Below, in pieces: positions 2,249-13,386 of a DNA stretch of 13,398 nucleotides. Location of the stretch: positions 1 to 13,398 of the forward strand of contig MNUO01000026.1 in NCBI GenBank assembly GCA_001871015.1. Direction: 5' to 3'. The translations under genes were made by a program, and so were the position numbers. This stretch comes from Candidatus Desantisbacteria bacterium CG1_02_38_46. Its GTDB lineage: Bacteria; Desantisbacteria; UBA1551; UBA1559. Each line of letters begins with the position of its first letter. The first letter of the stretch is position 1. The notes beneath the pieces are model-generated. The model saw only the letters and a program-made list of their open reading frames with translations. It had not been told where the DNA came from and made no database searches.

Positions 2249-2947
2249 TTAAAATTCCAATAATTTTTGTGCGAGGCGGTGAATTTCAGAATTGGCGATT
2301 GCCATTATTTTTTTCTTCACAGTGCGGGAATAATATTCTTTCTCAGTTTTGGTCAAAGCCTGTCCGGACAATTTTTTCGTTATCAATTCCTTCTGTTTGG
2401 GAGAAAACAATCTGGAGAGAAAAAATTCTCTCGTGAATTCGTCTTTTAACTCCATTTTTTCTTTAAGTGAAGTTTTTGAGTGAAGTTCGCTATTTACTAC
2501 ATAAGTCATGAAAGTATTTTTTACTCTTTCTGAAGAAAGTATTGTCTTATCAATTTTTAAATCCTCATTATGAACCAATTTATTTCTTAAATCTTTCAGT
2601 CTTTCCTGATGTATAAGCTCAAACCTGTGCAGTTTTTCCAATTCAGGCTTATAATTAAAATGCTGGAAAACAGCAAGTGATAGGGCAAGCAGTTGATTAA
2701 AAAAATTCCTACCTTTTGAGTTTTTAAATTTGTTTTCGATTTGAACAGGATTAAATTTTATTTTTTTATCCGTAAGAATGCTTGCAAGTACAACAGGAAA
2801 TCCCTCAAGAAGACGGGAATCAGCGCTTTTAACCAAGCCTACCAGAACCTGTTCTGGGTCAACCTCGGTTTTTGTTTCCATAAGCGGATATCCGAACTTT
2901 GCAAGTCCTGAGAGAAGTAATTCTTTATCCATTTTTTTTATAGCCAT
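2249..2947 (-). CDS. HEPN-like protein with HTH-like C-terminus, toxin-antitoxin-type partner
   Basis: A 232 aa soluble protein that I do not recognise as a named family. Near the middle, LKDLRNKLVHNEDL (about residues 117-130) holds RNKLVH, Arg121-Asn122 and His126, matching the RNxxxH signature of HEPN nucleases. The C-terminal part (about 178-230) has SPKQKELITKKL, then EYYSRTVKKKIMAIAN, with the layout of a LuxR/sigma-4-like helix-turn-helix and many basic residues. If so, it joins an RNase-type toxin fold to a DNA-binding tail. The start ATG has AAGGAG 8 bp upstream, inside the preceding gene, and the two reading frames overlap by 10 bp, so translation is probably coupled. The partner is a nucleotidyltransferase, the pairing expected for MNT-HEPN modules. 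The HEPN motif is seen directly; fold, toxicity and DNA binding are inferred. An alternative is a non-toxic substrate-binding partner of the nucleotidyltransferase. Confidence 0.6.
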   Translation of the reverse strand: MAIKKMDKELLLSGLAKFGYPLMETKTEVDPEQVLVGLVKSADSRLLEGFPVVLASILTDKKIKFNPVQIENKFKNSKGRNFFNQLLALSLAVFQHFNYKPELEKLHRFELIHQERLKDLRNKLVHNEDLKIDKTILSSERVKNTFMTYVVNSELHSKTSLKEKMELKDEFTREFFLSRLFSPKQKELITKKLSGQALTKTEKEYYSRTVKKKIMAIANSEIHRLAQKLLEF

Positions 2948-3558
2948 AGTTCAATCTCCTTAATTATCTTGTCTACATTCATAATTTTTCTATTCACCTG
3001 TTTAAGAAATGCAGATAAATTTTGAAGCATCCTTTTGGGATTAATATCATAAGACGCAGTTTTTTTATATCTTAACAATAATTTCTTCAAATCAATTTGT
3101 TCCCTTTTTATTTTAAGCAGACTTATGCTATCTTCAATGTCAGCAGATGTGCCGCGAAATATTTTGGATATAATAAGGTCATAAAAATTAAGCGCACCAA
3201 CATAAATATGGGTTGTACCAATTTCAATGCATATATTTCCACCCTTCCTTAAAGGAGAAAATAAAATTTCTGTAGTATGGATATGCTTACCACGGAATAT
3301 GTCAAAAACAAAACCGTCATCCCTAATCCAGCGAAAACCTGATTCATTTTTATATCCGAGGTCTTTTAGTAATTTGATTAAATGACTATATTCGGCTTCG
3401 GCCGGCACAAGAAAATCAATATCCTTAGTAGACGGTTTGATTCCTAATAGTGTTAATGCGGTTCCGCCGCAGGCAATAAGCCTAATTTCCCTGCGAATAA
3501 AACTATCCCAGATTTTAAGGATATCTATAAGTTTATTTTTGTCGATTCTGTATTCCAT
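2938..3558 (-). CDS. DUF6036/MNT-type nucleotidyltransferase
   Basis: A 206 aa protein of the AbiEii-like/DUF6036 nucleotidyltransferase group. The polymerase-beta-type signature is visible: CGGTALTLLGI (residues 30-40), TKDIDFLV (44-51) with Asp46 and Asp48, and a candidate third acidic residue Asp86 in VFDIF. LNFYDLIISKIFR (123-135) followed by acidic residues matches the usual helical segment. Such enzymes act as antitoxins or toxins by transferring nucleotides to a partner protein or tRNA; here the partner is the overlapping HEPN-like gene. The ATG at 3558 has no Shine-Dalgarno sequence: the preceding leader is purely AT-rich and composed of operator-like repeats. The downstream partner has a strong site, so the pair may be translated unequally. 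A consensus promoter lies 50 bp upstream. Family call is good; direction of the toxin/antitoxin roles is inferred. Confidence 0.8.
   Translation of the reverse strand: MEYRIDKNKLIDILKIWDSFIRREIRLIACGGTALTLLGIKPSTKDIDFLVPAEAEYSHLIKLLKDLGYKNESGFRWIRDDGFVFDIFRGKHIHTTEILFSPLRKGGNICIEIGTTHIYVGALNFYDLIISKIFRGTSADIEDSISLLKIKREQIDLKKLLLRYKKTASYDINPKRMLQNLSAFLKQVNRKIMNVDKIIKEIELWL
2956..2961 (-). promoter_or_regulatory. Ribosome binding site of the HEPN-like gene inside the nucleotidyltransferase gene
   Basis: AAGGAG lies 8 bp before the ATG at 2947, within the last codons of the upstream gene. It fixes the start of the HEPN-like protein and contrasts with the lack of any such site before the upstream gene. 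Confidence 0.75.
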
Positions 3559-3651: not shown

Positions 3652-4710
3652 CTATCGTCTACCGTATTTATTTACTAAATCAAAATAATAAAGAGCGTTG
3701 TCAATAGGGACATTAGACGGGATATGATTGCCGACAGCCATAAAGAATCCAGGGCAGGATTTCGCTGTATTCATACATCTTTTAACTTCTTTTTCTATGT
3801 CTTCCTTTGTTCCGAATGTGAGTGCCCGGCAGTCCGCATTTCCTACGATGACATGTGTTTTTCCGTATTTTTTTACAACCAGTTCAAGGTCTGTCAGCGG
3901 TTCAAAAATAAAGCCGTCTGCTCCTGCCTGTGCAATATCATCAATAAATTCGGTGAAATTTCCATCTGAGCAGAAAATGACCTTAATGCCTTTTTCCTTT
4001 AAGGGTTGCCACAGCTTTTTATAACGAGGGAATATATATTTTCTGTACCACTCTGGTTTAAAAATAGCTCCCTGTGTCCAGACCATATCATCGTGTGAAA
4101 TAAAGATTTTAATATCGGTCTTGGCCCAGGCTTTTATGTTAGCAAGAGCAAGGTTAAAAAAACCCTCAAGCACATATTCTCCGAATTTTACAGGGTCAGT
4201 GCCGACTGCCATAAGGAACATATCCCATCCAAATGACTGGATGCAGCCGGAAACGATTGTTTTATAATATCCACCCGGGTAAATCAGACTTGGATAGGTC
4301 TTGCGACCATCCAGATTGGCTTGCTGGAAATATTTTGTACGCTCATCAATATCCGGAATTCCATATTCCTCTGCTGCATCAAAAGAAAGAACTTCCTGGG
4401 GAGTTTTGAACGGACAGACGCAAGGATTGCGGAAGTCAGTCCCGCCTTCCAAAAAGACTGCATGACCCATATCAGTGGTGCGACCAAGGTCCTGCCATGG
4501 AGTAGGCCCGTCGTTATTTATAAATAAGAAGTCATAATTTGCCCACTCATAAAATTTCCTCCAGGCATTTGTTCGTTCTTCCATATTTTTGCTTGAAGGG
4601 TCAAAACCAGTAATATGTTTTACAAGAGATGTATTACTGCAGTATTCAGTCCGCCCGACTCTCTGGGTCATTTCCAGATTCATTATTTTCATCCCGATCT
4701 CATAAGACAT
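3652..4710 (-). CDS. Uroporphyrinogen decarboxylase-family protein (MtaA/CmuA-like), altered metal site
   Basis: A 352 aa cytoplasmic protein with the architecture of the URO-D superfamily, which includes HemE and the methylcobamide:CoM/THF methyltransferases MtaA and CmuA. Features seen: a central strand KIFISHDDMV (201-210), GIKVIFCSDGN (241-251), ADGFIFEP (264-271) and a C-terminal GFFMAVGNHIPSNVP (321-335). In zinc-dependent methyltransferases the second segment carries His-x-Cys; here it reads Cys247-Ser-Asp249, so the usual zinc site is not kept. It is the last gene of the operon, 19 bp after another URO-D-like gene, with AAGGAG 6 bp before the ATG. A heme role is unlikely given the neighbours and divergence from HemE. 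It may act on a methylated or other fucose-derived compound, but substrate and reaction are unknown. No terminator is visible after it. Confidence 0.75.
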   Translation of the reverse strand: MSYEIGMKIMNLEMTQRVGRTEYCSNTSLVKHITGFDPSSKNMEERTNAWRKFYEWANYDFLFINNDGPTPWQDLGRTTDMGHAVFLEGGTDFRNPCVCPFKTPQEVLSFDAAEEYGIPDIDERTKYFQQANLDGRKTYPSLIYPGGYYKTIVSGCIQSFGWDMFLMAVGTDPVKFGEYVLEGFFNLALANIKAWAKTDIKIFISHDDMVWTQGAIFKPEWYRKYIFPRYKKLWQPLKEKGIKVIFCSDGNFTEFIDDIAQAGADGFIFEPLTDLELVVKKYGKTHVIVGNADCRALTFGTKEDIEKEVKRCMNTAKSCPGFFMAVGNHIPSNVPIDNALYYFDLVNKYGRR

Positions 4711-4729
4711 TTCTCACTCCTTTGGATTT

Positions 4730-5809
4730 TCAATAAGAGTTGTTTTCCATGAAGAGCGCAAGTGCATATTGATATGTTTTAAGGCTAATGTTTGGTGGAA
4801 TGGAATGGTCTGAATGGAAGAAATAGGGTATTCGCATTTTCTTAAGCTTGATTAATTTTGGTACTATTTCTGCTTCAACTTGTTTTTTATCGTTGGTGCT
4901 GAGTGGCACAACGTTAATATTACCCATATACGAAAGTTTTCTGCCATATTCAGATGCAATTTCCACCACATTACATCCCGCCTTTGATTCCATTGGCTGA
5001 AGACAGTCAAAACCTGCTTCGATAATTAAAGGAATTGCTTTTCTGATATCGCCGCACGAGTGCAGAATTACTTGCATCCCGTAGTCCTTAAAGAAAGAGA
5101 CAAGCTGTTTTTCATACGGTATGATGAGTTCGCGCATTGTGCTCGGGGAACAGAACAATCCTTTGTTGTAACCCCAGTCTTCATAAATGAAGAAACCATC
5201 GGGGATGCCTGCTTCTCTGAAAAGAATTTCATAGTGCTTGCGGTAAAAATCAAGATAAACCTGGCAGAAATCCTTAATCCATTCGGGTTCCAGCAGCATC
5301 GCTGGCAGGAAATTTTCATGACCTAAAGTCGCACGCAGGAGTTCAAACACAAACATATTTCCGAAAAAAGAGAATTTATTGTTCTTCCTGGCATTTTCCA
5401 GGCTGATTTTTGCCTGATTGATGTCACCCAGTCTGTTGCGGTTTACCTCGAGCAAGGGCTGGCGGTATTCCTTCCATTTTTCTTGAGTGGTTACTTCGAA
5501 ACCCATATGTTCGGGGCATCCTGATTTCTTCTTCCAGGTTTTCATAGTTGCGCCTCGCCCATCCTTTGTAACAACCCATTCATCAGTTTCCTGTACAACT
5601 TTACTGCGTCCCATAAATGGCTCGGTATCAACCCAGCTGCCGCAACCGGTCAAATCGTAATCAAAAAGACTCTCCGGTACTTTATCCTCTGGAAAGCCCT
5701 GATTAATCCAGTTATCTCTGATTGTTTCCGGCCAGAAATGTTCATAGATTCCCATCTTGTCAGGAATTTCTTTGTTCAGAAGTACTTTGACTCTTTCTCG
5801 TGAAGTCAT
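4730..5809 (-). CDS. Uroporphyrinogen decarboxylase-family protein (MtaA/CmuA-like) with HxC motif
   Basis: A 359 aa URO-D superfamily protein, probably a methyltransferase or relative. MQVILHSCGD (245-254) contains His250 and Cys252, the HxC pair that binds zinc in MtaA-type enzymes. The C-terminal position where those enzymes have a further Cys reads FFHSDHSIPPN (330-340), so the third ligand differs. Other family-like segments are FFIYEDWGYNKG (206-217) and YMGNINV (294-300). The start is taken at ATG 5809, which has AAGGAG 5 bp upstream. A TTG start at 5833 would add eight residues but overlaps the preceding gene and would place the binding site inside the coding region. Its neighbours are a GHL6 hydrolase upstream and a second URO-D-like gene downstream. 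It is clearly different from that neighbour, which argues against a recent tandem duplication. The true substrate cannot be told from sequence. Confidence 0.8.
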   Translation of the reverse strand: MTSRERVKVLLNKEIPDKMGIYEHFWPETIRDNWINQGFPEDKVPESLFDYDLTGCGSWVDTEPFMGRSKVVQETDEWVVTKDGRGATMKTWKKKSGCPEHMGFEVTTQEKWKEYRQPLLEVNRNRLGDINQAKISLENARKNNKFSFFGNMFVFELLRATLGHENFLPAMLLEPEWIKDFCQVYLDFYRKHYEILFREAGIPDGFFIYEDWGYNKGLFCSPSTMRELIIPYEKQLVSFFKDYGMQVILHSCGDIRKAIPLIIEAGFDCLQPMESKAGCNVVEIASEYGRKLSYMGNINVVPLSTNDKKQVEAEIVPKLIKLKKMRIPYFFHSDHSIPPNISLKTYQYALALFMENNSY

Positions 5810-5814
5810 ACTCT

Positions 5815-5820
5815 CTCCTT
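5815..5820 (-). promoter_or_regulatory. Ribosome binding site fixing the start at 5809
   Basis: AAGGAG is placed 5 bp before the ATG at 5809. This favours that start over the upstream TTG at 5833, which lies before this site and within the end of the preceding gene. Confidence 0.8.
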
Positions 5821-5825
5821 TTATC

Positions 5826-7784
5826 CTACTCAAAAACTACCATCTGATATCCGTTGACTTCAGGTATATTTACAATTGTGTAACCGTCACTTATCATAAA
5901 ATCAAGTTTTTCTTTTGTTGGAGCAATGGACACAGATTTTACCCTGTCCGTTCTCAATTTTAATTTTATATCTTTTGCAATTATTGGTTCTTCTATTGCC
6001 TGCAGCCTACTCCCCCTTAACTCAGGGCAGTATACCATTAAATGCACCATCTTCCTACCTTTCTTTTCTGTTACTGTTGCACGGCCAAAAGAAGGAAGGT
6101 TTTCCACAATTGTCAGCGGTTTTGGAAGCAGTTTTTCAATACAATTTTTTAAAATTGTCCTGTATGTTATGACGGCATGTTCATAGTATCCCCTAAAAAT
6201 AGGGAAACTGAAATGGATTATATTTTCTGACTGGACAATAGACGGCCTTCCGGAATATCTGTCAGGCGGAATGTAGAGGTAACCGTGGTATCCATCCCAA
6301 TGTTTGTTGAAATAAGGTTGGTAAAGTTGTGCAAGAACCCTCGCCCCCTTTTTCGCCTTTACTGATATTCCAGGTTTGTATATGGTAGTAAGGAAATCCG
6401 GCATATCTTTATTGATTTCTTTAAGCGGTTTTATAAAAGAGATATTCCATGGTTCATTTCCAAGGTAGTCCAGATTCCACTTTTTGCTTGCAAAACCTGT
6501 TTTTTCTATGTTCATCCCCGAATGAGCAGAGCTTATAATCGAGCCGCCGGATTTGAGGTATTTTTCTATTTTTTCTTTTAAATCCGGTGTTAACAGAATG
6601 TTATCAGAAAGAATAACTATTTTGTAATTTGAGAAATTCATACCCTCATCTATTATGTCAAACTGGTGCTTCAATTCAGACAACATCCTGGCTGCGCCGG
6701 ACAGACTTTCTGTGTTGTTTAAATAAGGAAATAGAGCAGAATCCCCTACAGTCAAAAGTGCAATTTCGGTTAGTGCTTTTGCATGGTCTGTCCAGGGTTC
6801 AAGTTCCTTTATTTTTGAATAAACTTTTCCTATCAAATTATAAACTTCCTTGTTTAATTTTCCTCTTGGGTGCATATGGTCTCCAACAGAACAGCCCACG
6901 GCATTGCTTATGGCGTTGTAACAATCGTATTCCAGAGAAACCTGTGATTTAATTCCTCCGAAATCTCCCCAGCTCTCATGGAATCTGCCTGTCATTCCGA
7001 GTACCTGTTTACTGACCTTCCGCGCATAGCGTACGTCTAGCGGAAAGCTTTCATATCCCCAGCCACCCGTGGGGAGGCATTCTACTTCAATATGTGAACC
7101 GCCATGGTGCATATGCTTTTTATACGGGACGCCATTAAAAATAAGAAATTTGTCTCTGCCGACAAGTTTTTTAATGCGGTCACAGAAATTTAACATTGAC
7201 TGTCTGTAAAACTCAAGGACCTTGGTTTCATCCAGAATGTCAATTCCTTTTTTCTTCATCAAGTCCAGGCATTCTTTTCCATAACACTGGGCAGTGGCTA
7301 CAGTATACCAGAAGCAATCAAGAAAAATTCCGTCAACAGGATATTTTTCAAGGACTTCTTTTACAAGGCTGGTAAGATAATCTCCGTACCCGCTATTAAA
7401 ACACATCAGCCTGAAGAAATGTGTCATTTTTTCTTCTGTGTTGTAGACCCTGCCAGATTTGTCAACAGAGCACCATTCCCTGTGCCTTATTGCCTGCTCG
7501 TGGTCCAGCAATGCATTGAAATATGCCGAAATGCCGATACCCTGCTTGTGGCATTCCCTGACCATTTCTCCTAACATGTCACATTTTAATGATGGATAAA
7601 CAATACCTATTTTTGTCGGGTAATAGGCAAAACCGAGGTTGCATTTTGCAAAGGCATTGATGTAATCAACATTTGCATCTTTTAATGTTTTTGCAAATTC
7701 CTTTGCATTGAACTCAGAACCTAAGTCCGGAATTTTTGGCATTGTGTGAAAATCAAGATGAATGGCTCTTTTTAAATATCTCAT
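5826..7784 (-). CDS. GHL6-type glycoside hydrolase, possible GH151-like alpha-L-fucosidase
   Basis: A 652 aa protein with the look of 'hypothetical glycosyl hydrolase 6' proteins carrying a beta-galactosidase trimerisation-like domain. The N-terminal barrel opens with RAIHLDFHTMP (6-16), FAKCNLGFAYYPTKIG (45-60) and CDMLGEMV (68-75). Candidate catalytic acids are Asp156 in DGIFLDCFW (151-159) and Glu233 or Glu235 in HIEVECLP. About 335-425 has the Rossmann-like pattern of the trimerisation domain (EIALLTVGDSALFPYL; YKIVILSDN; YLKSGGSIISS). No signal peptide is seen, so it probably acts in the cytoplasm. The ATG has AGGAGG 5 bp upstream, and the gene starts inside the GH29 gene with a 32 bp overlap, implying coupled translation. 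Placement between a fucosidase and sugar genes supports action on fucosides; to my recollection GH151 fucosidases share this build, but I cannot confirm that here. Confidence 0.75.
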   Translation of the reverse strand: MRYLKRAIHLDFHTMPKIPDLGSEFNAKEFAKTLKDANVDYINAFAKCNLGFAYYPTKIGIVYPSLKCDMLGEMVRECHKQGIGISAYFNALLDHEQAIRHREWCSVDKSGRVYNTEEKMTHFFRLMCFNSGYGDYLTSLVKEVLEKYPVDGIFLDCFWYTVATAQCYGKECLDLMKKKGIDILDETKVLEFYRQSMLNFCDRIKKLVGRDKFLIFNGVPYKKHMHHGGSHIEVECLPTGGWGYESFPLDVRYARKVSKQVLGMTGRFHESWGDFGGIKSQVSLEYDCYNAISNAVGCSVGDHMHPRGKLNKEVYNLIGKVYSKIKELEPWTDHAKALTEIALLTVGDSALFPYLNNTESLSGAARMLSELKHQFDIIDEGMNFSNYKIVILSDNILLTPDLKEKIEKYLKSGGSIISSAHSGMNIEKTGFASKKWNLDYLGNEPWNISFIKPLKEINKDMPDFLTTIYKPGISVKAKKGARVLAQLYQPYFNKHWDGYHGYLYIPPDRYSGRPSIVQSENIIHFSFPIFRGYYEHAVITYRTILKNCIEKLLPKPLTIVENLPSFGRATVTEKKGRKMVHLMVYCPELRGSRLQAIEEPIIAKDIKLKLRTDRVKSVSIAPTKEKLDFMISDGYTIVNIPEVNGYQMVVFE

Positions 7785-9078
7785 TTGTTCCTCCTAAAAA
7801 CAGCTCAATTACAGGCACTGTCACATCTGGTTTCTGGGATGGCAAATTTAAAACCAAAACTTCGCCTTTATGTTTAAGCTGATTTTGATACCACTCTCCA
7901 AGTCCTGTCTTAATCTCGCTTGCATCATTTAGAAGTTGTGCGTATTCAACGCGCTGTGCATATGCTTTGCCGTCCAGGTAAAGATACTTGTAAGGCCAGG
8001 CGAAAATATGAACATAAAGCCGTTTTGTTTCAGGATTATATGTAAGCCGGCAGTCCTGTGGAGTTTTAAATTCATCAGGAGCTTGGGTACAGCCATAAAT
8101 GGCTCGGCTATGCCTTTTCATCCACTCGCCAATACCTTCGAGGCGATTTATAGCACGGCCATCAAATTCACCTCTTGCAGTAGGACCGACATTCAGCAGA
8201 AGGTTTCCGCCTTTACTTACGCAGTCAATTAGAGTGCGCACCAGTTCGTCTACGCTGCGCCAGGTTGATTCATCACGGTAATAACCCCAGGAGCCCGAGA
8301 AAGTCTGACAGGCTTCCCATACAACGCGCTGTCCATTGACCGTAACCCACTCCCTGGGCTGGAATTGTTCAGGAGTTTTTATATCCCATTTGTCAGCAAG
8401 GTCAAGGCGGTCGTTCAGTACTATCTTCGGTTGAATCTGACATATAAGTTTATAGAGTTCTTCGCTCTGCCAGTCATTGCGGCCTTTTCCCTGCGGTCCA
8501 GGATACGAAAAGTCAAGAAAAAGAATATCAATTTTACCAAAATTCGTTAAAATTTCTTTTACCTGTCCGTGGAGGTATTTTGCATATTTTGCCTGAACGC
8601 GGGTCTTGTTCATTTTTTCCCTGTCAGGATGATTGCGCAACGCATGCGTGTTGTCTATTACAAAGTCAGGGTGGTGCCAGTCAATTAGCGAATGGTAGAG
8701 ACCGACGTGCAGTCCCTGATTGCGGAACGCCTCGACCATCGGTTTTATAAGGTCTCTTTTTGCCGAAGTATTTGTCGCCTTGTAATCAGTCAGTTTTGAA
8801 TCCCAGAGACAGAAACCCTCGTGGTGCTTTGTCGTAATTACAAAATATTTCATTCCAGCCCTCGCAGCAGTCTGCGCCCACAGGTCCGGGTTATAGAGGT
8901 CCGGGTCAAAACGCTTGAAGTACTTTTTTTCATACACGTCAGGTGGCACCTGTTCATATTGCATCATCCACTCATGACGCGCTCCCTGGGCGTAAAGTCC
9001 CCAGTGTATAAACATTCCAAACCGTGCCTTTACAAACCAGCTGATATCCCCAGCAGTCCTTCTTACATCCTGTAACAT
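7753..9078 (-). CDS. GH29 alpha-L-fucosidase
   Basis: A 441 aa enzyme that hydrolyses alpha-L-fucosyl linkages with retention. GH29 landmarks are clear: FGMFIHWGLYA (20-30), FDPDLYNPDLWAQTAARAG (57-75), KYFVITTKHHEGFCLWDS (77-94), LHVGLYHSLIDWHHP (123-137), IDILFLDFSYPG (183-194) with Asp189 the likely nucleophile, VVWEACQTFSGSWGY (252-266), and SKGGNLLLNVGPTARGE (288-304). The acid/base residue cannot be assigned safely; Glu255 is conserved in the family pattern. There is no signal peptide, so it likely works in the cytoplasm on imported oligosaccharides. The start is ATG 9078, preceded by AAGGAG; a TTG at 9093 would put that site inside the gene. It follows fucK by 16 bp and overlaps the next hydrolase gene. 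Its product L-fucose is the substrate of the two upstream enzymes. Confidence 0.95.
   Translation of the reverse strand: MLQDVRRTAGDISWFVKARFGMFIHWGLYAQGARHEWMMQYEQVPPDVYEKKYFKRFDPDLYNPDLWAQTAARAGMKYFVITTKHHEGFCLWDSKLTDYKATNTSAKRDLIKPMVEAFRNQGLHVGLYHSLIDWHHPDFVIDNTHALRNHPDREKMNKTRVQAKYAKYLHGQVKEILTNFGKIDILFLDFSYPGPQGKGRNDWQSEELYKLICQIQPKIVLNDRLDLADKWDIKTPEQFQPREWVTVNGQRVVWEACQTFSGSWGYYRDESTWRSVDELVRTLIDCVSKGGNLLLNVGPTARGEFDGRAINRLEGIGEWMKRHSRAIYGCTQAPDEFKTPQDCRLTYNPETKRLYVHIFAWPYKYLYLDGKAYAQRVEYAQLLNDASEIKTGLGEWYQNQLKHKGEVLVLNLPSQKPDVTVPVIELFLGGTNEIFKKSHSS
7790..7795 (-). promoter_or_regulatory. Strong ribosome binding site inside the fucosidase gene
   Basis: AGGAGG lies 5 bp before the ATG at 7784 and within the last codons of the GH29 gene. 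It fixes the start of the GHL6 gene despite the 32 bp overlap. Confidence 0.85.
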
Positions 9079-9082
9079 AACT

Positions 9083-9088
9083 CTCCTT
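9083..9088 (-). promoter_or_regulatory. Ribosome binding site fixing the GH29 start at 9078
   Basis: AAGGAG stands 4 bp before the ATG at 9078 and downstream of the alternative TTG at 9093. This is why the shorter protein start is preferred. Confidence 0.8.
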
Positions 9089-9094
9089 TTCAAT

Positions 9095-10591
9095 CTATAT
9101 TTTCAGTAATTGCGGTAATTTTTTGAATTTTTCAAAAAGTTGCCTGTAAATTCTTTTATTTCCTGATGGTTTAAAAATATGCTCAACAAATTCAAATTTT
9201 TTTCTTGCTTCTTCTACTGATTTATATACACCACTACCTGCAAATGCAAAGATTGCTGCTCCAAGCACAGTTGCTTCTTTCTGCTCTGTGACTACGACAG
9301 GCATATTACACACATCTGCGCGTATTTGATTCCACAAATCATTCTTTGAACCGCCACCCACCACGCGAAGCGCTTTTGGTTTTTCATTCATAGTTTTTTT
9401 GAGGATTTCCATTGCGGATTTCAACTGGAATGCAAGGCCTTCCAGTGCGCCGCGGTAAATTTTTGACCTATTTGTGCCCAGCGTTAGACCCAGGATAGTG
9501 CCAGGGACATTAAATTTTCTGAAAGGACCTGTATCGAGCTTGAAGCTGGGGATAACTGTGACACCGTCGCTTCCGGGCATGATTTTTCTTCCTTCAGACA
9601 TCATTAAAGAATAAATGTTTTTCTTGTCAGCGACATCACTGAAGAAATTTTTTCTCACCCATTCGAGAACACCTGAACCCATCATCAATATTTGCGGGTT
9701 CCAGTATCCTGGTGTTGCATCGCATTCAAAAATCAAGCCACCCTCAAATCCTGATTTATCCGGGGTGCATTTATTTGTCCTCACCATCAAAATTTCCCAT
9801 GTCCCCGTGCTCAGGACCGCCTCATTTTTCCGTGCACCGCAGCCGTATAAAGCGAACTGTGTATCATGCCCGCAGGCAATTACAGGAATACCTTCAGGCA
9901 ACCCTGTTTCTTTACTTGCACGTTCTGTGACCTTGCCGATAATTTCTCCAGGCTGTGTCCATTCAGGGAAAAATGACGATTTCAAATCTGCCATTCCAAG
10001 CATTTCTTTCGACCAGTTCCTTTTTTTAATATTCATTGCCATCATTGTTGAGCCAATTGTGGGGTCAATTGAAAACTCTCCACAGAGTTTGTAACTTAAT
10101 AATCCCGGCATCATCAGCCAATACTTTGCCTTTTTTAATGAATTTTGGGCATTCTTTTGTAACCACATCAATTTTAAGATAGTATTAAATGAAATTACTT
10201 GATACCCAGTAATTTTATATATTTTCTCCGCTGAAATTGTGCGATAAATCACACCGCTACAATCTGCTGTTCTGGGGCACTGCCAGGAGATTACAGGATA
10301 TGTGAGATTTCCATTTTTATCAACCGGTGCGCCATCAGCACCAAAAGTGGTGACTGTCACAGATTTTATATTTTTCCTGCTGACCTGTGCGCAAATTTTT
10401 CTTGAAGCAAAGCATAATTTTTTCCAGATTTCTTCTATGTCCCAGATAAGCCAGCCGGGCTTGCCATTTTTCTGCGGTACAGGTTTATTGGGGAATCCAG
10501 CAGAAGCAAGAATTTTTCCAGTTCTATCTACCGCGATTGCTCGCACATTTGTGGCCCCACAATCAAAAACGACAGCAATTTCTTTACTCAT
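9095..10591 (-). CDS. fucK: L-fuculokinase (FGGY kinase)
   Basis: ATP-dependent phosphorylation of L-fuculose to L-fuculose-1-phosphate, the second intracellular step of the fucose pathway. The 498 aa FGGY-fold protein closely follows E. coli FucK in signature regions: DCGATNVRAIAV (10-21), VTTFGADGAPVDKNGNL (80-96), ISWQCPRTA (101-109), GHDTQFALYGCGA (241-253) with catalytic-base candidate Asp243, STGTWEILMVR (261-271), SGVLEWVRK (306-314) and VVGGGSKNDLWNQIRAD (410-426). Length matches the family. It begins 5 bp after the isomerase stop, and no Shine-Dalgarno sequence precedes the ATG, so it is probably translated by reinitiation after that gene. The specific match to FucK rather than rhamnulokinase or xylulokinase, plus isomerase and fucosidase neighbours, makes the assignment strong. 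Confidence 0.93.
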   Translation of the reverse strand: MSKEIAVVFDCGATNVRAIAVDRTGKILASAGFPNKPVPQKNGKPGWLIWDIEEIWKKLCFASRKICAQVSRKNIKSVTVTTFGADGAPVDKNGNLTYPVISWQCPRTADCSGVIYRTISAEKIYKITGYQVISFNTILKLMWLQKNAQNSLKKAKYWLMMPGLLSYKLCGEFSIDPTIGSTMMAMNIKKRNWSKEMLGMADLKSSFFPEWTQPGEIIGKVTERASKETGLPEGIPVIACGHDTQFALYGCGARKNEAVLSTGTWEILMVRTNKCTPDKSGFEGGLIFECDATPGYWNPQILMMGSGVLEWVRKNFFSDVADKKNIYSLMMSEGRKIMPGSDGVTVIPSFKLDTGPFRKFNVPGTILGLTLGTNRSKIYRGALEGLAFQLKSAMEILKKTMNEKPKALRVVGGGSKNDLWNQIRADVCNMPVVVTEQKEATVLGAAIFAFAGSGVYKSVEEARKKFEFVEHIFKPSGNKRIYRQLFEKFKKLPQLLKI

Positions 10592-10596
10592 ATTTT

Positions 10597-12090
10597 TTAT
10601 TTGACTATTTCCCAGATAGGAACTATTCTTTCTTTTCCTCTGGACCCAAGGATTACCGGAGTAATTCCTGCTATTTCACATAGATAGGTGAGCGCTCTCA
10701 CCCTGTCTTCAGTGATTCCAAGCACATGGTTGCAGGGGAAAACACTTAAAAATTCTTCAAAAGTGCAATCGAGCCTTGCATGCACATGCGGCCAGGTGGG
10801 ATTTGTCTGAGCATTGATTTCTTTTCTTTCTTTTTCACTTCTACGCAAACTCTCTCCAGAAACAATTACGATGTATGGTTTTTCATCCCACAAGCCGAGT
10901 CTGCAAAAAGTCATTTTTCCTGGTGCAGCATCAAAGGAAACAGATGCTCCACCTGCTTTGAAGTAATATTCAAGAGCCGGATAAAATGTAATTTTTTTAA
11001 AGTTGTCCTCGGGTTTCATGCTCAAATTTGCATAATAACTCGCATGATTTCCTGAATTACACCAGTCCCATAAATCCTTATCAGGATGATAGAGACGCAC
11101 ATCCATAAACAGTGTTGGTAACCCACCGCTTATGTACTTTAAAAGTTGCATTGTTATTGCTGCATAAGAATCTGCTTCAGTAGCACATACTGTGGGTTCT
11201 TTTTTTCCATTCCAGTCATACGGGTCATTCATTAACATTTCAGGAACATCACCAAGGCACACATATTCTGTGAGTTCTCTCTGTCCTTTTAATCCGCAGA
11301 AATCAAAACCCTTATCTTTGTTGACTTCGCGCATTGCAATGTAAAGACGGATTTGTGTCTTTAAAGTTTCCGGTGTGAGCATTTTTCCGTCGTATTTAAT
11401 CCTACTTCCGAGCAATTTTTCAAACCACCTGAATCCCTTCTCCACTTCTTTTTCATCCACCCGTTCCATTGCTTTTACCAGCCATAACTGGTCAATCTGA
11501 CGCACTGTTGTGCCCAGGGATTTAAGAGTTGGAGTGAGGTGATAAAAACCTGTTTCCATTCCCATTGAGTGCCCACCATAACAACCATAGACTTCATTTT
11601 TTATTGTAGTCAATGCAATACTTGCACGACACCACTCAATAACTTTTGCCTGTGTTTCTTTGTCATCAATTTCTCCTACAATGCGATGTGTTCGGATTCC
11701 TGCCTGCCTCAATGCACCATCAGTTGCAAGCAATCCAACATTCCCCGGGTACTGCCCATTATTGTTTGAAAGACTCAATACTGGAACATTCCCGATGCTA
11801 TTAATAAATGGCCAGACAAGAAAAGGGAAATTCCAGACATTGTAACACATAATAATTTGTTTGCAGTTTACCCTTGCAAGTTCTTCTCCAATTTTCTGTG
11901 CGAGTTCAACGCCGGTAATAATCTGTGACGCAACTATTACCTCGGGTACTGTGCCATCCACATTTTTAAGTCCATCTTTAATAACCTTAGCCCATTGTTT
12001 CACAACCCTCATATTTTCAGGGTTATTTTTCGTCCACACATGTTTCCTCTCATCATTTAACATTGCAATGCCAATAGCAGTACTTCTCAT
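10597..12090 (-). CDS. fucI: L-fucose isomerase-family protein
   Basis: Likely converts L-fucose to L-fuculose in the cytoplasm, feeding the adjacent kinase. The 497 aa protein has isomerase-family features: YGGHSMGMETG (171-181), TVCATEADSYAAITMQLL (300-317) with metal-ligand candidate Glu305, LPTLFMDVRLYHPD (324-337) with Asp330, GNHASYYANL (347-356), and PTWPHVHARLD (431-441) whose His435 or His437 could be the third metal ligand. It is roughly 90 residues shorter than E. coli FucI (591 aa), consistent with a shorter COG2407-type branch, so action on another 6-deoxy or pentose sugar is possible. Context with fucK and GH29 favours fucose. The ATG at 12090 follows an AGGGGGAG ribosome binding site that is unusually close to the start. 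The upstream gene ends 36 bp earlier. Confidence 0.85.
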   Translation of the reverse strand: MRSTAIGIAMLNDERKHVWTKNNPENMRVVKQWAKVIKDGLKNVDGTVPEVIVASQIITGVELAQKIGEELARVNCKQIIMCYNVWNFPFLVWPFINSIGNVPVLSLSNNNGQYPGNVGLLATDGALRQAGIRTHRIVGEIDDKETQAKVIEWCRASIALTTIKNEVYGCYGGHSMGMETGFYHLTPTLKSLGTTVRQIDQLWLVKAMERVDEKEVEKGFRWFEKLLGSRIKYDGKMLTPETLKTQIRLYIAMREVNKDKGFDFCGLKGQRELTEYVCLGDVPEMLMNDPYDWNGKKEPTVCATEADSYAAITMQLLKYISGGLPTLFMDVRLYHPDKDLWDWCNSGNHASYYANLSMKPEDNFKKITFYPALEYYFKAGGASVSFDAAPGKMTFCRLGLWDEKPYIVIVSGESLRRSEKERKEINAQTNPTWPHVHARLDCTFEEFLSVFPCNHVLGITEDRVRALTYLCEIAGITPVILGSRGKERIVPIWEIVK

Positions 12091-12126
12091 GCTCCCCCTA
12101 TTTTAAGGTTATATTTTATTTTCCTT

Positions 12127-13386
12127 TCATTTTTCCACCATTTCCATAGCTATTTGAGACCATTCCCATAATCTGTGAGGTTTATAACGTACCGTGGAAA
12201 TATCTTTCATAATAAACTCAACGTGGCAATTGTGCCCGGTTTTTTCTAATACTTCGCGGATTTCTGCGCGTGCTCTTTCTGGATGCCAGTTATCTTCAGC
12301 CAGAATGGCAGGATTAGGTTTGTAACTGATGACATAATCACTGCCGATATTTTCAATTGCTCGTTTAAGATTACACCAGGTACTTACGGAAATTTTGCGA
12401 AGATTGGGAATTTTACGAAGAATATGTATTTTTCTATCCAGCGGTTCACAGCACCCATAATATGTCAGGCCCCAGCGTTCAAGCCAGCGAAGGTCATGCC
12501 TGAGTGCAAATTCCCAATGCATATCCGCAGATACTCCAGAGAATATCTGTGCGTTTGAACAACCCCACATGTTGTGCGGCCGCACGTAATTGGAATCATA
12601 ATTAGCACCGGGTAACTCATCTGTGTATCCGTAGGCACCTGACCCCACCCGTGTGTTATTGTTATCCAGAGAAAGAAGATTCATTTTTTCAAATTGGTCA
12701 AGTTCTACCATATATGCATCAACCACCCGTTCTACAACAGCATTGACAAACTCCGCACGCTCAATCATATCAATCATTGCTTCCTGAATACCGTACCAGC
12801 GAATTATGTTATCCCAGGGAGCAAACCAAATGTGTTTCTGACCAACCTTTTTGACCGGCATAATGCCATCATAGACTTCGCACATAGTCCGGTAATGAGA
12901 TTCTGTCGTTTTTTCATTATAAGTCACGGCCGGCATTTTGATTTTTTCTATATCTTCAGGATTGCGTATTTGAATTTTGAAATGACGTGATACAACATTG
13001 CTGGACTCATCTGTTTTTACCATATCGACATCTTCAGTTATACCAAAACCTGTGCTATGAATAGCCAGTGGGCAGGTTAGAAAATCGCTGATAATCATAT
13101 CAGCCGGCATATGCTTCCATTGATAAAGAGTTCTACGTAATCCGCATTCCTGGTCACGCGCCCATGGATGCTGTGTTTGCAGTGTAAGTTCGTCATCTAC
13201 GTTCATCTCGTTCCAGCATACTTCATTAATCCATACCATGGGACGCACAGACTTCAGGTCATTTAGATTCGTCCATAATTTAGATTTCTCCTTATGAACC
13301 GGTAATGCAGCTATCCTGGCAACTTCTTCTGCCAGACGACGAAGAATCTCCCTGCCTTTCCGTGGAAGCATAATTTCATTTAACAT
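12127..13386 (-). CDS. Uroporphyrinogen decarboxylase-like/methyltransferase-like protein
   Basis: A 419 aa protein that looks like a long, divergent member of the URO-D superfamily. Supporting segments are HIWFAPWDNI (185-194), the helix after it, and LTYYGCCEPLDRKIHILRKIPNL (307-329). Cys312-Cys313 sit where MtaA/CmuA enzymes have their metal motif, followed by KISVSTWCN (331-339), DYVISYKPNPA (350-360) and NCHVEFIMKD (386-395). N-terminal residues 45-110 hold a family-specific segment (RPMVWINEVCWNEM; MPADMIISDFLTCPLAI). No signal peptide. The start has AGGA near the right edge of the window. It precedes fucI by 36 bp and is the first operon gene visible. It is not a close paralogue of the two URO-D-like genes at the other end of the operon. 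Function unknown; superfamily assignment moderate. Confidence 0.65.
   Translation of the reverse strand: MLNEIMLPRKGREILRRLAEEVARIAALPVHKEKSKLWTNLNDLKSVRPMVWINEVCWNEMNVDDELTLQTQHPWARDQECGLRRTLYQWKHMPADMIISDFLTCPLAIHSTGFGITEDVDMVKTDESSNVVSRHFKIQIRNPEDIEKIKMPAVTYNEKTTESHYRTMCEVYDGIMPVKKVGQKHIWFAPWDNIIRWYGIQEAMIDMIERAEFVNAVVERVVDAYMVELDQFEKMNLLSLDNNNTRVGSGAYGYTDELPGANYDSNYVRPHNMWGCSNAQIFSGVSADMHWEFALRHDLRWLERWGLTYYGCCEPLDRKIHILRKIPNLRKISVSTWCNLKRAIENIGSDYVISYKPNPAILAEDNWHPERARAEIREVLEKTGHNCHVEFIMKDISTVRYKPHRLWEWSQIAMEMVEK

Follow-up and report, generated by a model that had tools for sequence, protein, structure and literature searches.

Three URO-D superfamily genes in a fucose operon

We analysed a stretch of 13,398 nucleotides (the window), which is contig C83 of the draft genome of Candidatus Desantisbacteria bacterium CG1_02_38_46 (1.73 Mb in 133 contigs, 88% complete). 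Between positions 3652 and 13386 it carries seven minus-strand genes, in which fucose genes are combined with genes for three proteins of the uroporphyrinogen decarboxylase (URO-D) superfamily, here called U1, U2 and U3. In gene order these are:

12127..13386, minus strand: U3, URO-D-fold protein of 419 amino acids (no Pfam match; assigned from predicted structure)
10597..12090, minus strand: L-fucose isomerase-like protein (Pfam domains Fucose_iso_N1, N2 and C; under the FucI equivalog cut-off)
9095..10591, minus strand: L-fuculokinase FucK (TIGR02628, 508 bits against a cut-off of 471)
7753..9093, minus strand: alpha-L-fucosidase of glycoside hydrolase (GH) family 29 (297 bits; start at TTG 9093 or later, near 9078)
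5826..7784, minus strand: GH151-type alpha-L-fucosidase with GHL6 and GH42M domains (full-length match to PDB 6tvk)
4730..5833, minus strand: U2, URO-D superfamily protein (Pfam URO-D; start at TTG 5833 or later, near 5809)
3652..4710, minus strand: U1, URO-D superfamily protein of 352 amino acids (Pfam URO-D)

The first three intergenic gaps measure 36, 5 and 1 bp, two overlaps follow, and U2 and U1 are 19 bp apart. Due to this tight spacing on a single strand, we read the seven genes as one transcription unit. Since the contig edge lies 12 bases upstream of the U3 start, the operon may extend further in that direction.

A first-pass annotation, made from the sequence alone, had recognized a fucosidase, a second hydrolase, an isomerase and a kinase at this locus. 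All four are indeed present. FucK exceeds the NCBIfam equivalog cut-off. The isomerase, the sole FucI-like copy found in the genome, contains all three Pfam fucose-isomerase domains and falls far below the FucI equivalog threshold (TIGR01089, 116 against 850 bits). The second hydrolase can now be specified: it aligns along its entire length with a solved alpha-L-fucosidase, 6tvk (E 1.6e-109, residues 3-652), which we take, from its domain architecture, to belong to CAZy family GH151. The operon therefore carries two fucosidases of different families.

The same annotation had assigned three of the seven genes to the URO-D superfamily. This assignment stands, for U1 and U2 by Pfam (78 and 47 bits) and for U3 by predicted structure alone. 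The genome contains 26 genes of this kind, namely 25 with a Pfam URO-D match and U3, among about 1,400-1,600 genes in total (estimated from the 1.73-Mb genome size), and the probability of finding three of them among seven by chance is about 1-2e-4.

Fold and active sites of U1, U2 and U3

Predicted structures had been suggested as a check on the annotation, and AlphaFold2 models of U1 and U3, built from alignments of their relatives, are both confident (pLDDT 94.1 and 93.9) and both display the URO-D fold. The U1 model reaches Z of about 25 with the HemE structures 1j93 and 3cyv, the U3 model Z of 18.9 with 4wsh and 3cyv (for 4wsh, root-mean-square deviation 4.0 over 292 aligned residues). 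With the MtaA structure 4ay8 the values are 22.7 for U1 and 15.8 for U3. Single U1, U2 and U3 sequences matched no solved structure when searched against the PDB with phmmer; only with a U1 profile was a weak match to HemE obtained. Comparing the U3 and U1 profiles with each other gave no convincing result (13% probability), and for this reason the fold of U3 is taken from structure prediction.

Two candidate identities were rejected. U1 scores 28 bits against the HemE model TIGR01464, whose cut-off is 303; U2 and U3 are not listed among its matches, and the operon provides no heme-biosynthesis context. The likeness to HemE is one of fold. Membership in the MtaA/CmuA family (TIGR01463) fails as well, U1 and U2 reaching 38 bits each against a cut-off of 235. 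MtaA, MtbA and CmuA share the fold with U1 and U3 and a weak sequence similarity with U1 and U2, whereas U1 and U2 lie far under the curated cut-offs of this group (235-600 bits) and all three operon proteins lack the H-x-C...C motif.

Residues invariant across 32 proteins of the U1 family are H206, D207, D208, W211, D249, E270, P271, D293, N328, H329, P331 and N333, the last four falling within the motif G327-N-H-x-P-x-N333. According to DSSP run on the U1 model, most of them appear to lie just after the ends of barrel strands, as would be expected of an active site. In U3, the invariant residues are Y310-G-C312-C313 (YGCC), K356, E390, K394 and D395. At the positions that correspond by sequence alignment to the zinc motif of MtaA (H-x-C...C), U1 has C/T-x-D...N and U2 H-x-C...H, while U3 possesses the invariant YGCC instead.

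The H-C-C motif of thiol-alkyltransferases (MT2) was found in none of the URO-D proteins of this genome that were aligned. Because this zinc motif is absent, a thiol-methylating MT2 role is unlikely for them; judged by their motifs, they would fit roles as substrate-side methyltransferases (MT1). CdmB, a solved URO-D-fold MT1, does not need zinc (PMC13222342), and the lack of the zinc motif in U1 and U3 is therefore compatible with an MT1 role.

Corrinoid machinery in the source genome

As the first-pass annotation had remarked, no corrinoid protein is encoded in the window. The missing parts lie on other contigs of this genome: a single MtaC-like corrinoid protein, which has both B12-binding domains, on contig C5, three RACo activases on contigs C17, C33 and C89, and, on C17 close to RACo, a methyl-tetrahydrofolate:corrinoid methyltransferase scoring 346 bits against a curated cut-off of 259. 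We infer that U1, U2 and U3 would share a single corrinoid protein.

The 25 Pfam URO-D genes of this genome face one MtaC-like corrinoid protein, that is, many putative MT1s per carrier. On contig C79 (L069:33-10671), a gene for an MttB-type methyltransferase adjoins a URO-D gene and is followed downstream by subunits that resemble 2-oxoacid dehydrogenase E1 by eye and by a second URO-D gene.

Co-occurrence of U1 and U3 with RACo

Relatives of U1 come, by genome label, from Omnitrophota, Anaerolineae/Chloroflexi, Poribacteria, Armatimonadetes, Latescibacterota, Planctomycetota, Hydrogenedentota, Lentisphaerae/Victivallales, Clostridia, Kiritimatiellota, Verrucomicrobia and others. Of 33 U1-bearing genomes searched over about 12 phyla, 32 carry RACo, as against 1 of 14 control genomes.

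A denser survey covered 201 genomes of one phylum, that around genome G145, whose records bear titles such as Armatimonadetes and Hebobacteria. Of these, 76 carry U1 (four weak matches left out), 95 U3 and 132 RACo. With shared ancestry ignored in all three tests, RACo accompanies U1 in 76/76 genomes against 56/125 (45%) of those without U1 (p 2e-19) and U3 in 95/95 against 37/106 (35%) of those without U3 (p 7e-27), while U3 occurs in 73/76 genomes with U1 and 22/125 without it (p 1e-30). The spread of the U1-RACo pairing over about 12 phyla partly offsets the ignored ancestry. These results bear on dependence on a corrinoid system, not on the substrate. U1 is nearly always present in a single copy per genome, whereas U3 averages about 2.9 matches in the 95 genomes that have it, 64 of which show more than one. 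Among the closer kin of the source genome, relatives of U3 are rare (4/116 genomes).

A linked cluster was detected in genome G287, where the genes for a corrinoid protein, MtaB, several URO-D-type proteins, U3, a homocysteine S-methyltransferase fragment, U1, further URO-D-type proteins, DUF1638, an MtaA-like protein with H-C-C and RACo follow one another on one strand. U1 and U3 thus stand beside fucose genes in the window and beside corrinoid machinery in G287. The first-pass annotation had proposed corrinoid methyl transfer acting on O-methylated fucose. Its corrinoid half is well supported by the parts in the source genome, by RACo co-occurrence and by G287; judging from genome content and co-occurrence, U1 and U3 probably act in corrinoid-dependent methyl transfer. 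For its fucose half the support is moderate.

The G287 region (L142:2770-19641, contig C1) holds about nine URO-D-type genes and is an unusually large corrinoid methyltransferase cluster. Its DUF1638 gene (PF07796, confirmed) lies at L142:12990-13754 with RACo and corrinoid proteins nearby. Proteins recognized as DUF1638 by eye from sequence are encoded beside RACo and corrinoid proteins at L204:11385-12134 and L208:8390-9097 as well. DUF1638 may belong to corrinoid methyltransferase systems.

Association of U1 and U3 with fucose genes

Next to U1, GH29 genes are clearly enriched. Across 100 U1 loci they make up 5 of 188 immediate neighbours of U1 and 0 of 988 other genes in the same loci (p 1e-4). 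The five cases are loci L046, L050, L051 and, from two closely related genomes, L181 and L185. In L050 and L051, both from Chloroflexi, U1 is flanked by GH29 on one side and on the other by an enolase-superfamily protein of the sugar-acid-dehydratase kind. An HpcH-type aldolase is encoded nearby, and the catabolic route there looks different from FucI/FucK. GH29 also adjoins U3 among the U3 loci examined, in G046 (two copies) and in G257.

The source genome itself contains a second module of this kind. Contig C90 encodes a U1-like protein (46% identity) that retains the U1 signature, a U2-like protein (29%), GH29 (36%), a dipeptidase and GH20.

A survey of co-occurrence with fucose genes had been put forward in the first-pass annotation, with scattering of the URO-D genes named as the outcome that would speak against the idea. 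Both outcomes were found: GH29 is enriched beside U1, and most copies of U1 and U3 are scattered.

A proposed pathway and what weighs against it

We tentatively propose that the window holds an operon for fucoside catabolism that includes an anaerobic O-demethylation of its own; taken as a full account, this is possible rather than probable. In this pathway, the GH29 and GH151 fucosidases would free fucose, part of it O-methylated. U3, U2 and/or U1 would act as the MT1s, at which the Co(I) corrinoid protein, supplied in trans from contig C5, would attack the sugar O-methyl group and yield free L-fucose and methyl-Co(III). The RACo encoded near the methyltransferase on C17 would maintain the corrinoid as Co(I), and that methyltransferase would hand the methyl group to tetrahydrofolate. 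A 2-O-methyl group would block isomerisation between C1 and C2, so demethylation would have to precede FucI; the demethylated fucose would then pass to FucI and FucK. That methylated fucose or a methylated fucoside is the methyl donor is possible, and we hold this part much less firmly than corrinoid-dependent transfer as such. The idea that demethylation is coupled to sugar uptake finds no support in the operon, which encodes no transporter.

Several observations weigh against this pathway. No operon gene by itself indicates a methylated substrate, and neither a corrinoid protein nor an activase is encoded in the operon as far as the contig contains it. The fucose pathway is not shown complete: an aldolase of the Aldolase_II family (FucA) was not found in the 88%-complete draft, which may reflect draft incompleteness or the use of another aldolase. 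The co-occurrence counts are uncorrected for ancestry and do not separate U1 and U3 from other URO-D genes. In other genomes, most copies of U1 and U3 stand alone rather than beside fucose genes, and a phylum-wide survey of common neighbours revealed no constant neighbour of U1. GH29 is present in 75 of 76 U1 genomes (p 0.002), but also in 182 of the 201 genomes surveyed (91%); being near-universal, its presence at the genome level says little.

The alternative that survives best keeps the methyl transfer and changes the donor. U1, U2 and U3 might take methyl groups from O-methyl sugars other than fucose, from methyl glycosides or from methoxylated aglycones that the same glycans release, and be co-expressed with the fucose genes without further connection. 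The RACo and corrinoid evidence applies to it equally. In the source genome, URO-D genes lie among varied glycan and sugar genes (MGH1-like glycoside hydrolases, GHL6/GH42M proteins, GH20, Gfo/Idh proteins and xylose-isomerase-like TIM barrels), and in other genomes U1 adjoins GH3 or an arabinofuranosidase-type protein, or has no recognisable neighbour. Against it stands the clear enrichment of GH29 beside U1, in distant phyla and twice in the source genome, and we regard this alternative as rather doubtful.

U1 might instead be a generic component, for example of a shared transfer step, serving many URO-D-type methyltransferase reactions, with U3 as the substrate-specific fleet. Such a division would agree with a nearly always single-copy U1 without constant neighbour, with the multiple copies of U3 and with the presence of U3 in almost every U1 genome. 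Since the source genome has two U1-type genes, each beside U2-type and GH29 genes, and the proposal names no generic step, we consider it unlikely.

It is more unlikely still that the three proteins form a URO-D-fold class with another sugar chemistry, such as a missing aldolase or isomerase step, whose corrinoid link is indirect. The lack of a canonical zinc motif in U1 and U3, the strongly polar invariant residues of U1 and the missing FucA would suit such a class; the absence of any RACo-free genome among the 76 with U1 and the 95 with U3, and the G287 cluster, in which both are joined by a corrinoid protein, MtaB and RACo, argue against it. Finally, chance or hitch-hiking in a small, URO-D-rich genome (26 such genes in 1.73 Mb), although most copies elsewhere are unlinked to fucose genes, is very unlikely given the low chance expectation for three genes of seven, the tight one-strand packing of the operon, the U1-U2-GH29 trio repeated on C90 and the excess of GH29 next to U1 in other phyla.

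Relation to known systems

The URO-D superfamily and the logic by which MT1, corrinoid protein and MT2 work together are already known. CdmB and the acetogen O-demethylases (PMC13222342) share with the proposed system the URO-D fold, the MT1 role (predicted here) and the need for a corrinoid protein, an activating enzyme and an MT2. They differ in their donors, which are chloromethane and aryl methyl ethers, and in having the corrinoid protein encoded alongside. Compared with CdmB by description, the present genes lie in a fucose operon, their conserved pocket residues are polar instead of aromatic, and the genes for the corrinoid parts are not linked to them.

That an algal sugar loses its O-methyl group before it enters central catabolism has a precedent in 6-O-methyl-D-galactose, which is demethylated oxidatively by a cytochrome P450 with release of formaldehyde (PMC10033563). 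The proposed system, in contrast, would be oxygen-independent and would retain the methyl group for one-carbon metabolism. Glycan degraders do target 2-O-methyl-L-fucose in nature, as GH139 2-O-methyl-fucosidases occur in degraders of rhamnogalacturonan II (PMC12282258); GH139 is a hydrolase, and the term "demethylat-" is absent from that paper. In the open-access literature that we searched, neither the presence of URO-D-like genes in fucose operons nor a corrinoid demethylation of sugars was reported. The U1 and U3 families, their polar pockets that lack the zinc motif, the link to fucosidase operons and the implied sugar demethylation are undescribed in the literature searched.

Glycans of plants, algae and microbes contain O-methylated sugars, and P450 chemistry was the sole route of sugar demethylation met in that literature. 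If the proposed pathway is true, a corrinoid route would account for the use of such sugars by anaerobes, tie glycan degradation to one-carbon metabolism and provide a function for the URO-D-like genes that abound in draft genomes of glycan degraders and tend to bear the name of uroporphyrinogen decarboxylase. More speculatively, and with considerable doubt, fleets of URO-D-fold proteins without the MtaA zinc motif might share few corrinoid proteins and strip O-methyl groups from glycan sugars to tetrahydrofolate, as a widespread, undescribed anaerobic route. U1 and U3 are well-bounded families, and the idea is thus directly testable with purified proteins.

Other genes in the window

The remainder of the window carries a gene for a DUF6036 nucleotidyltransferase and an overlapping partner gene encoding 232 amino acids (2249-3558), toxin-antitoxin-like by arrangement only, and a plus-strand gene for an AAA_14/DUF4143 ATPase (385-1623). 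Open reading frames at 1620-2027, behind the ATPase gene, look spurious or decayed.

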